Of a stretch of 5,018 nt of DNA, positions 1 to 2,702 are shown piece after piece. Each line of letters starts with the position of its first letter. Position 1 is the stretch's first letter. The stretch is from assembly GCA_014730235.1 (NCBI GenBank), contig WJIO01000154.1:1-5018 (forward strand), in the 5' to 3' direction. The notes beneath the pieces were generated by a model that saw nothing but the letters and a program-made list of their open reading frames with translations, was not told the origin of the DNA and searched no databases. The DNA comes from Candidatus Poribacteria bacterium. GTDB lineage: Bacteria; Poribacteria; DTPJ01; WJIO01. The position numbers were made by a program, and so were the translations under genes.

Positions 1-585
1 GAAATAGCGTCGAATATACCTAAACCCATAAACATGCAAGGCCTGCTTGAAACAGTTAAAGAGATCATCAGCAACAGACGAAAGACCGTATTACAGACAA
101 GAAAACGAATAGCAATCCTTGATGATGAAGCTCGTTCCCAGCAGTTTTTGCAAAGCATCCTGGTTCATGATATGTATGACATAGAAACTTTTATCTCGGA
201 AAAGGAACTGTTAAAAAGACATAGACACAAAGTTTTTGACCTTTACATTATAGATTTACCGTCAGCAGGTAAAAAATTTGGTGATATTATCCAGAATATA
301 AAGGAATTATCAGCGAATGCAGTATTTCTTACTATCACCCCGGATGATTATGAAGTATCTCAGGAAGACATGGATAAACAGGATATACATGCGCATTATA
401 CCAAACCTATAGATATTAATAATTTCAGAACCAATATAGACAGTTTGTTGGAAAAATCGAATAAGGATGAGCAAATAGAAACAGAACAGGAAGAAGCCCG
501 GGAAGATCAGGAAGACGAATCTAAAGATTCACAGGTTGATATAAATGATGAATCAGAGGAAGCAGTAGAGGTAGATAATGGCTGA
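1..585 (+). CDS. Tandem receiver (CheY-like) response-regulator protein with acidic tail, 5' end outside window
   Basis: The reading frame is open to the left edge, so the gene starts upstream. The first in-frame ATG (34) has no Shine-Dalgarno sequence and lies inside a conserved fold, so it is probably internal. Codons 1-28 (EIASNIPKPINMQGLLETV and on) look like the beta5-alpha5 end of a REC domain, with the invariant Lys-Pro at nt 22-27. A complete REC domain follows (about nt 100-465): the acidic pair Asp-Asp in AILDDE at nt 121-126, the predicted phospho-acceptor Asp in YIIDLP at nt 253-255, the beta4 Thr in VFLTIT, and Lys-Pro in YTKPID at about nt 403-408. The last 39 residues are dominated by Glu, Asp, Gln and Ser, are likely disordered, and hold no recognisable output domain. 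The protein is probably cytoplasmic and takes phosphoryl groups from a histidine kinase such as CheA. Its position before fliL and the switch genes suggests a motility role, but no target is shown. REC assignment is confident; the specific function is unknown. Confidence 0.85.
   Translation, partial: EIASNIPKPINMQGLLETVKEIISNRRKTVLQTRKRIAILDDEARSQQFLQSILVHDMYDIETFISEKELLKRHRHKVFDLYIIDLPSAGKKFGDIIQNIKELSANAVFLTITPDDYEVSQEDMDKQDIHAHYTKPIDINNFRTNIDSLLEKSNKDEQIETEQEEAREDQEDESKDSQVDINDESEEAVEVDNG
568..572 (+). promoter_or_regulatory. Ribosome binding site of fliL
   Basis: GAGGT lies 5 nt before the fliL ATG at 578 and sits inside the end of the upstream REC gene. It supports this fliL start and an 8-bp overlap between the two genes, an arrangement that favours translational coupling. 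Confidence 0.55.
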
Positions 586-1084
586 AGAAAATCAGGAAAA
601 TACAGCAAAAAATAATGATAAAAAATCCAGAATAGCTCTTTATATCATAGCTATTATTCCTACAATAGCTATGGTTAGTTTTTTTCTTGTGACAAAGGTC
701 ATTAACCCCAGGGTTAATCCGGCAGCAGCAGACACTACAGAAACCCCTGTGGAAAATGTGGTAGCCAAAACAGAAGAGACATTTCTCTGCGAATTGGGAA
801 CTGTTCTGGCTAATCCATCAGGAGGAAACAGCAGACGAATTATGAAAATGGGAATTTCTCTTGAAGTATCATCCAAAAAGATGATAGAAGGAGTTGAAAA
901 GATTAAGCCTAAATTACAGCATCAGCTTATAATAATACTTTCATCCAAAGACCTGGATTTAATCAGTTCAGCAGAGGGTAAATCATCCCTGCAGGAGGAG
1001 ATTAAAACTGCTTTTTCTGAGTTGCTGGATTCTAGCGAAGGTAGTTTACTCCAGGTCTATTTCAGCGAATTTGTAGTTCAGTAA
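578..1084 (+). CDS. fliL: Flagellar basal body-associated protein FliL
   Basis: This 168-residue protein has the FliL layout: a short charged cytoplasmic N-terminus rich in Asn, Lys and Glu (residues 1-18), one membrane helix (about 19-42, with a Pro at 28), a Pro/Ala/Thr linker, and a periplasmic domain from about residue 65 to the end. The domain opens with ETFLCELGTVLANP, continues with a strand RRIMKMGISLEV, and ends in VYFSEFVVQ, close to the family's usual terminal motif. FliL family members sit in the inner membrane around the stator units and influence motor torque or stator stability. The start overlaps the REC gene by 8 bp and has a GAGGT ribosome site. fliM begins 4 bp after the stop. 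The length is normal. Identification rests on the topology, the terminal motif and the position before fliM. Confidence 0.9.
   Translation: MAEENQENTAKNNDKKSRIALYIIAIIPTIAMVSFFLVTKVINPRVNPAAADTTETPVENVVAKTEETFLCELGTVLANPSGGNSRRIMKMGISLEVSSKKMIEGVEKIKPKLQHQLIIILSSKDLDLISSAEGKSSLQEEIKTAFSELLDSSEGSLLQVYFSEFVVQ
701..718. repeat. Short perfect inverted repeat inside fliL
   Basis: The arms ATTAACCC (701-708) and GGGTTAAT (711-718) are exact reverse complements around a 2-bp CA spacer. In the reading frame they encode Ile-Asn-Pro-Arg-Val-Asn, just after the membrane helix of FliL. The form could be a dimeric operator or a small RNA hairpin. However, an 8-bp arm can occur by chance in 5 kb, and no function is supported. 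Confidence 0.4.
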
Positions 1085-1088
1085 AATT

Positions 1089-2180
1089 ATGGAAAAAGAT
1101 CCTTCTCTGGAAGACGAAATAAAGGCTTTACAGGATGAAATCGAGTCGCTTTTAAATTCCGATTCATCTTCACACCAGTTGTTTTCAGATGGTAAATCCA
1201 GAACTGTTGATCCGCTTCTGTCCCAGGACGAGGTGGATACGCTTCTTACTGCTATGTCATCAAATGCACCTGCACCGACACCATCTGATGAAAATATCAG
1301 TGTGGAAAAATATGATTTTATAAAACCCACTCACCTCACCCGGGAGCATATTAAGTCTATTTCCGCACTTCACAGCAATTTTGCCCGTAATTTGGGTTCT
1401 ATTCTCTCTTCTATATTGCGAACCCCTGTGGAGGTAAATTGTTCCCATATTGAGCAGTTGAATTACGGGGAATATCTAACCTCCCTTCTGGATCCAAGCT
1501 GTATAGGAATTTTCAGTATATCGCCCATGAAAAGCTATGGTGTTATTGATATGAACCCAACCCTGGTTTTTCCCATGATAGATATGCTGCTGGGGGGAAC
1601 TGGTTCGGTAGGATTTTACAGCAGGGGTCTTACCAAGATTGAGGAAAATATAATCGCCAATGTGATGAAAAGAATCCTGGAAATACTTCAAGAGATATGG
1701 TTGCGCAATATGGAGGGAATAAAGATAAATATGGAAAATCTCGAAAGCAGCCCTCAGTTTGTCCATGCTGCATCTCATGGTGATCCAATGGTACTTGTGC
1801 TGTTTGATATTAAATTCGATGATATACGAAACATGATGAGCCTGTGTTTTCCCTTTCTAACAATACAGCAGTTGTTGGCGAATATTCAGAAAGAGGAATA
1901 TCCTGAGGCAGATGAAAAAGGGGATATGAAGCCCTACAAAGTTATGATGCGAAAGCACGTGGATAGTGTACCGCTGAATTTGAGTGTAAGATATGAATCC
2001 AACCAGGTAACTCTTGGTGAATTACTGGAATTGCAGAAGGGCGATATTGTCAAACTCCAGAATGCAGATAAAAACCGGGTTCTGGTGTATATTGAGGACA
2101 AAGGGAAATTCCAGGGCAAACCGGGGATGGTCAATGGTCGAAGGGCGGTACAGATATTTGATGCTGTAGAGGGAGAATAA
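1089..2180 (+). CDS. fliM: Flagellar motor switch protein FliM with extended N-terminus
   Basis: FliM forms the middle of the C-ring, binds phosphorylated CheY and sets rotation direction. The CheY-docking motif LSQDEVDTLL is at residues 44-53. The core begins at YDFIKPTHLTREHI (75-88), followed by FARNLGSILSSILRTPVEV and the middle-domain motif LLGGTG (167-172). The C-terminal SpoA domain, which contacts FliN, spans about 294-363 (VPLNLSVRYE through QIFDAVEGE). The protein has 363 residues, against about 334 in E. coli. The excess is at the front: the docking motif normally lies within roughly the first 16 residues, but here about 43 precede it. That extension holds a second similar element, LQDEIESLLNS (14-24). 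The ATG follows the fliL stop by 4 bp and lacks a clear ribosome site, so it is probably read by coupling. The only in-frame alternative start I see before the canonical motif is a TTG at 1179, also without a ribosome site. The family is certain; the start is likely. Confidence 0.95.
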   Translation: MEKDPSLEDEIKALQDEIESLLNSDSSSHQLFSDGKSRTVDPLLSQDEVDTLLTAMSSNAPAPTPSDENISVEKYDFIKPTHLTREHIKSISALHSNFARNLGSILSSILRTPVEVNCSHIEQLNYGEYLTSLLDPSCIGIFSISPMKSYGVIDMNPTLVFPMIDMLLGGTGSVGFYSRGLTKIEENIIANVMKRILEILQEIWLRNMEGIKINMENLESSPQFVHAASHGDPMVLVLFDIKFDDIRNMMSLCFPFLTIQQLLANIQKEEYPEADEKGDMKPYKVMMRKHVDSVPLNLSVRYESNQVTLGELLELQKGDIVKLQNADKNRVLVYIEDKGKFQGKPGMVNGRRAVQIFDAVEGE

Positions 2181-2195: not shown

Positions 2196-2702
2196 ATGGA
2201 GGAGAAAGATGTTACCCAGGAAGAACTTGATGCCTTACTTGAGGAAGCCATGAAAGAAGCCGATGAAATAGATATTCCCGGTGAAAATAATCCTGACACC
2301 GGAGAAGAGGCAAAGGACAAAAGTCAGTCGAAAGCTCAACTAAAAGCAGAACAAAATGATTTCCAGCAGGGGGTTAAGCCCGAAAAAAAGCCGATTCAGA
2401 ATGACGGTTTTGAAAATATGACATCAGAACCTGATAGGGAAAAAAGCAATATTGATATACTGATGGATGTTCCTCTGGATGTATCTGTAGAATTAGGTAG
2501 AACGAGGATCGCGATAAAAGATATGCTGAAGTTGGGCCCTGGTTCGGTGGTAGAGCTTGATAAGCTAATAGGTGAACCGGTAGATTTACTGGTGAACGGC
2601 AGGCTTATTGCCCGGGGTGAAGTTGTGGTGTTTGATGAGAATTTCGGGATCAGGATAACTGATATAATCAATCCGGCAGACAGGATTAAAAGCCTGAGAT
2701 AA
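2196..2702 (+). CDS. fliN: Flagellar motor switch protein FliN, long N-terminal region
   Basis: FliN builds the base of the C-ring, pairs with the FliM C-terminus and helps dock export cargo through FliH. The C-terminal SpoA domain fills about residues 88-160: [17 protein letters not shown], then [21 protein letters not shown], and [20 protein letters not shown] with [10 protein letters not shown] at the end. These are classic FliN motifs. The first 84 residues are unlike the short E. coli N-terminus (whole protein 137 residues there, 168 here). They open with [13 protein letters not shown] (6-18), which resembles the EIDALL docking peptide of FliM and FliY. A charged linker rich in Glu, Lys, Gln and Asp follows and is likely disordered. 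No CheC-like phosphatase domain is present, so it is not a full FliY. The ATG is fixed by GGAGGA 5 nt upstream. fliO starts 4 bp after the stop. Confidence 0.94.

Follow-up and report, generated by a model that had tools for sequence, protein, structure and literature searches.

A putative second EIDALL-type docking motif on the N-terminal arm of FliM in one order of Candidatus Poribacteria

FliM proteins of E. coli, B. subtilis and T. maritima (TIGR01397 / PF02154) carry a single N-terminal LSQxEIDALL peptide, to which CheY-P docks. Two questions are still standing: how an ultrasensitive switch arises from CheY-P occupancy of FliM, and why a single docking peptide on each FliM is enough.

CheY-P binds FliM at the EIDAL motif (PMC6946799; PMC9126983), and in a current model a disordered linker hands the tethered CheY over to a second set of sites on either FliM or FliN (PMC7355467). 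In Caulobacter crescentus FliM the docking peptide (residues 47-62, motif Ile/Asp at 57/58) lies behind an extension. This site is common to CheY and the Cle proteins, and mutation of Ile-Asp to Trp-Ala abolishes docking to it (PMC5677366). FliN and FliY proteins sporadically contain EIDAL motifs as well, in full or degenerate form (PMC6946799). Furthermore, FlhG makes contact with the N-terminus of FliM in monotrichous bacteria; in B. subtilis it contacts FliY (PMC12826062).

The stretch of DNA analysed here, referred to as the window, spans an entire contig of 5018 bases from an assembly of 5.5 Mb in 451 contigs. Pfam matches identified, in this order, the end of a receiver-domain gene, fliL, fliM, fliN, fliO and fliP, while fliQ and fliR were assigned behind fliP by ORF position only. 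This corresponds to the fliL-fliM-fliN-fliO-fliP-fliQ-fliR order expected for a FliM gene. The relevant features, all on the plus strand, are as follows.

1..585, + strand: gene of a tandem receiver-domain protein; the contig end truncates it, leaving the tail of REC1, all of REC2 and an acidic tail
578..1084, + strand: fliL (PF03748, 6e-17), with its stop codon 4 nt ahead of the fliM ATG
1089..2180, + strand: fliM (363 aa), N-terminally extended by 43 residues
1110..1133, + strand: EDEIKALQ, FliM residues 8-15, the degenerate positional equivalent of QDEIDALL in the sister genome G001 (MAFFT alignment A1)
1128..1160, + strand: LQDEIESLLNS, FliM residues 14-24, the second EIDALL-like motif (10.5 bits, shuffle P 0.004), within predicted helix 5-23
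1218..1247, + strand: LSQDEVDTLL, FliM residues 44-53, the canonical CheY-docking motif (24.5 bits), with predicted helix 46-57
2196..2702, + strand: fliN, 168 aa (TIGR02480, 1.2e-33), with an EIDALL-type motif at the N-terminus

A bona fide FliM is encoded at 1089-2180. The protein contains the middle CheC-like and the C-terminal SpoA domain (PF02154, 1.1e-47, residues 75-263; FliMN_C, 4.4e-17; PF01052, residues 290-358), and TIGR01397 (fliM_switch) matched residues 43-359 with 254.6 bits (1.2e-75), exceeding the curated cut-off of 219.6. As this match begins only at residue 43, the family model does not cover residues 1-42, which confirms the N-terminal extension postulated in the original prediction. 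No other FliM was found in the window genome. The canonical motif conforms to LSQ[x]E[I/V][D/N]xL[L/F], and its score of 24.5 bits falls inside the 13-30 range of other FliM motifs. Residues L44, S45, Q46, E48 and L52 were invariant in alignment A1. Structure prediction with AlphaFold2 from an eight-sequence alignment placed helices at residues 5-23 and 46-57, joined by a linker (residues 24-42) with pLDDT below 50.

The extension would never be made if translation of fliM initiated further downstream, and no clear Shine-Dalgarno sequence was seen ahead of the ATG at 1089. However, the position of this ATG 4 nt past the fliL stop codon is compatible with coupling. The only in-frame start between Met1 and the canonical motif is a TTG at residue 31, which is not preceded by a Shine-Dalgarno sequence either, and initiation at GTG 49 or ATG 56 would truncate or delete the canonical motif. 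Moreover, the fliM start codon of G001, which lies upstream of its first motif copy, is preceded by the Shine-Dalgarno-like sequence AAGGA. A wrong start codon was judged unlikely, and a downstream start that eliminates the extension appears highly improbable. No in-frame start codon with a plausible ribosome site was present between Met1 and the canonical motif; the extension is in all probability translated.

The single other genome of the same order that was compared, G001, belongs to a different family. Its FliM is 52% identical to the window FliM and carries two perfect motifs, SQDEIDALLKAM at residues 7-18 and SQEEIDALLKAV at residues 50-61. The N-terminus reads MENGPISQDEIDALLKAMGD...NPILSQEEIDALLKAVPS, with the motifs 43 residues apart. 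Copy 1 (residues 7-15) scored 29.2 bits, which is within the range of other FliM motifs, and copy 2 scored 29.0 bits. At the DNA level the two copies are alike at 27 of 39 bases only, indicating that they are not an assembly duplicate; mis-assembly as source of the duplication is disfavoured. The two perfect copies of G001 are the strongest evidence and, at the sequence level, give firm support to a second motif of the EIDALL docking type in the FliM arm of this order. Consistent with the original prediction, no orthologue lacking conservation of the first segment was found within the order.

In the window, both motifs were present at the predicted positions, LQDEIESLLNS at residues 14-24 (nt 1128-1160) and LSQDEVDTLL at residues 44-53 (nt 1218-1247). 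The upstream copy was scored against a profile of 31 single-motif FliM sequences, from which the motifs of the window and G001 were left out. Residues 14-22 reached 10.5 bits, which is outside the range of the profile motifs (lowest, 13.0 bits) yet above chance. This score was attained by 0.4% of composition shuffles, 0.4-0.5% of shuffles preserving the hydrophobic/polar pattern and 0.1% of random acidic heptad coils. The proteins of the studied loci yielded 1217 stretches of 42 residues; 17 of them scored at least 10.5 bits, and 16 of these were FliM or FliN N-termini. A chance resemblance of the window copy to the docking motif appears unlikely. The best fit to QxEIDALLN in the window arm was QDEIESLLN (residues 15-23), in which Glu replaces Asp; it has Q, E, I, L, L and N in common with E. 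coli QAEIDALLN.

Both the MAFFT alignment and the ungapped N-termini placed QDEIDALL of G001 (residues 8-15) over EDEIKALQ of the window (residues 8-15), one heptad ahead of LQDEIESLLNS. The segment LEDEIKALQ (window residues 7-15) scored 5.05 bits against the same 31-sequence profile. The counterpart of the Ile-Asp pair is I18-E19 at the window copy and I11-K12 at the orthologous position. Both segments belong to a heptad repeat, LEDEIKA-LQDEIES-LL, with L7, L14 and L21 as well as I11 and I18 in register. Two histories would account for this register: a one-heptad shift of the docking face in the lineage of the window, or decay of the ancestral site, in which case QDEIESLLN would represent a heptad echo. 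If either window segment still binds, residues 15-22 would be a better candidate than residues 8-15. Being degenerate and displaced by one heptad, the window copy is uncertain in its binding. The predicted second docking motif is thus upheld for the order by the two perfect copies of G001, but the copy on which it was originally based is degenerate and lies one heptad off the orthologous site.

These features could also mean that the window motif has decayed, or that the segment forms a generic amphipathic or coiled-coil helix without a ligand; in either case only G001 would possess a functional double motif. The heptad repeat, the exchange of Asp for Lys and of Leu for Gln in EDEIKALQ at the G001-equivalent position and the score under the range of other FliM motifs all point in this direction. 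In contrast, the agreement of QDEIESLLN with the E. coli motif, the small fraction of acidic heptad coils that reach 10.5 bits and the homology of the region within the order argue for a docking motif. We regard a decayed motif or a ligand-free helix in the window as possible, though on the unlikely side; for the window species alone, loss of function of copy 1 is a serious alternative.

In a set of 47 FliM-like ORFs, all distinct and taken from E. coli, Acidobacteriota and the present phylum, two motifs per protein were seen in only two cases, the window and G001. Direct reading of the other 45 N-termini detected no double motif; these proteins displayed a single motif close behind the start, a divergent motif or none. 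Each of 11 plasmid-borne FliM from Proteobacteria, Bacillota and Actinomycetota had at most one recognisable EIDALL motif, and some alphaproteobacterial members of this set combined a single motif with an extension of tens of residues. As far as two genomes show, the double motif appears to be a feature of the order. A scan of genome contigs retrieved only three Acidobacteriota FliM, each with a single motif, and no FliM was found in a scan of viral contigs. When four genomes were scanned with a wider-gap DNA pattern, G001 alone was found and the window was missed through a GTG codon. A degenerate-DNA two-motif scan of 396 Acidobacteriota genomes gave no hit, but was discounted as a usable negative because it missed GTG, CTG or TTG at the Ile position and the EINALF form, and because its gap range excluded G001.

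Several observations concern FliM in the phylum at large. A FliM match was lacking in 68 of 84 genomes, including all of the largest family (f3), so that flagella are restricted to a small number of families. Another family (f4; L026-L030 in G040, G062, G055, G061 and G060) has FliM proteins without recognisable EIDALL motif, which would be chemotaxis-deaf if their starts are right. Two FliM genes with very unlike N-termini are present in G023, G057 and G067 (L022, L023, L031-L033), which suggests two flagellar or export systems.

Both members of the order possess a chemotaxis operon encoding CheA, CheW, CheR, CheD and CheB. The operon of G001 additionally encodes CheX and a conventional CheY; here (L059 5241-6093) a CheX-type phosphatase adjoins CheY and CheD, and neither CheC nor FliY was found at this site. 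FliN begins with TQEELDALL in the window (2196-2240, 23.0 bits) and with DQEEIDAIM in G001 (L045 5623-5650, 18.3 bits). Since both FliN proteins start with an EIDALL-type motif, the C-ring may hold far more docking peptides than the motif copies on FliM would supply by themselves. These N-termini fit the sporadic EIDAL motifs reported in FliN and FliY (PMC6946799).

The best explanation, to which we assign a probability of roughly 0.5, is that this lineage has a second docking helix of the EIDALL type, specific to it and partly decayed in the window, which would add CheY-P capture sites at the motor. This explanation builds on the motifs in both order members, the predicted helices and the chemotaxis operon; from these we infer binding, the identity of the ligand and an effect on switching. 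The FliM arm of this order would carry two docking helices, one behind the other, with a flexible acidic/Ser-rich linker between them. CheY-P would dock to the downstream copy in the usual manner. The upstream copy most likely acts alike: folding into a short amphipathic helix on a phosphorylated receiver of the CheY type, against its alpha4-beta5-alpha5 face, it would tether that receiver beside the C-ring. This would provide two capture sites per FliM, in addition to the EIDALL-type N-termini of FliN, and would raise local CheY-P occupancy before the second-stage contacts with FliM or FliN. In the window species the upstream copy is weakened by the replacement of Asp by Glu or Lys and by the heptad shift, and it may be of lower affinity or decaying. 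For two such helices on one arm, the simplest reading is that the second adds another capture site like the first. Counted against this explanation are the number of genomes, two from this order, the score of the window copy below all profile motifs, the still lower score of its positional equivalent, and the longer, heptad-like window helix, which is as expected of a generic amphipathic helix.

The main rival to a second CheY-P capture site is docking of FlhG to the upstream copy, which would then act in C-ring assembly and the control of flagellar number and leave the downstream copy for CheY-P. The known contact of FlhG with the FliM N-terminus in monotrichous bacteria (PMC12826062) and strong FlhG homologues in the window genome (G000, 2.7e-56) and G001 (1.6e-70) are consistent with this possibility. 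However, FlhG was also found in the five other phylum members searched, whose FliM motif is single or divergent, indicating that FlhG does not need a second copy. Moreover, nothing ties copy 1 specifically to FlhG. FlhG docking is less favoured, since FlhG occurs elsewhere in the phylum alongside a FliM that lacks a second copy, and we consider it rather unlikely.

The tandem receiver-domain protein was considered as another ligand. The original prediction had envisaged docking of both its receivers; copy 1 would then serve this protein, and the motor would read a pair of receivers, either different ones or the two of a single protein. The gene, which encodes an acidic tail, lies directly 5' of fliL in both order members, and in the stretches that precede fliM in three further members of the phylum (L004-L006), no such gene was present among the long ORFs. 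The truncated window protein matched PF00072 with 9.6e-7 on residues 37-146, and its homologue in G001 is complete, with two receiver stretches (L045 2922-3857). REC2 retains the equivalents of Asp57 and Lys109, and CheY-like proteins other than CheY, the Cle proteins, can occupy the docking site (PMC5677366). In contrast, Ser occupies the phospho-acceptor (Asp57) position in REC1 of G001, and REC2 has His at the position of Tyr106, so that the protein is not a plain pair of CheY domains. The CheY residue set (acidic pair, phospho-acceptor Asp, Thr/Ser, Tyr106, Lys109) is incomplete, and the receivers are only 11-19% identical to CheY. What connects this protein to copy 1 is gene neighbourhood. 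A role of copy 1 in binding it seems quite improbable, and docking of both receivers is doubtful in view of the Ser in REC1. More generally, two docking helices with different ligands, CheY-P on one and the tandem receiver protein or FlhG on the other, are unlikely; if they existed, a single FliM arm would integrate two motor signals instead of offering two equal CheY-P sites.

A natural FliM with two such peptides, both perfect in the sister species, would offer a way to alter the valency per subunit without engineering. Such a protein could be used as a test system for occupancy and cooperativity, or for examining CheY-P docking apart from FlhG-dependent assembly.

The FliM proteins of this order resemble single-motif FliM in their domains, in the canonical motif at the start of the family model and in the fliL-fliM-fliN gene order, but differ by an extension of 43 (window) or 48 (G001) residues with a second EIDALL-type motif. 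C. crescentus FliM likewise has an extension ahead of the motif, but only one docking site according to the description in that paper (PMC5677366). With B. subtilis FliY and other EIDAL-containing FliY and FliN proteins the order shares more than one EIDAL per C-ring protomer (PMC6946799). There the copies reside on separate proteins, whereas here a single FliM bears two in a row, with a further one on FliN. The interaction of FlhG with the FliM N-terminus in C-ring assembly involves the same region of FliM, and FlhG is encoded in both genomes; the described systems give no evidence for a dedicated second copy. A FliM with two tandem CheY sites was not found in the literature, as far as our partial coverage extends. 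N-terminal extensions of FliM and EIDAL motifs on several C-ring proteins are already known; two tandem copies on one FliM appear to be new with respect to the papers searched. The doubled motif is genuine, though a modest departure from a familiar machine.
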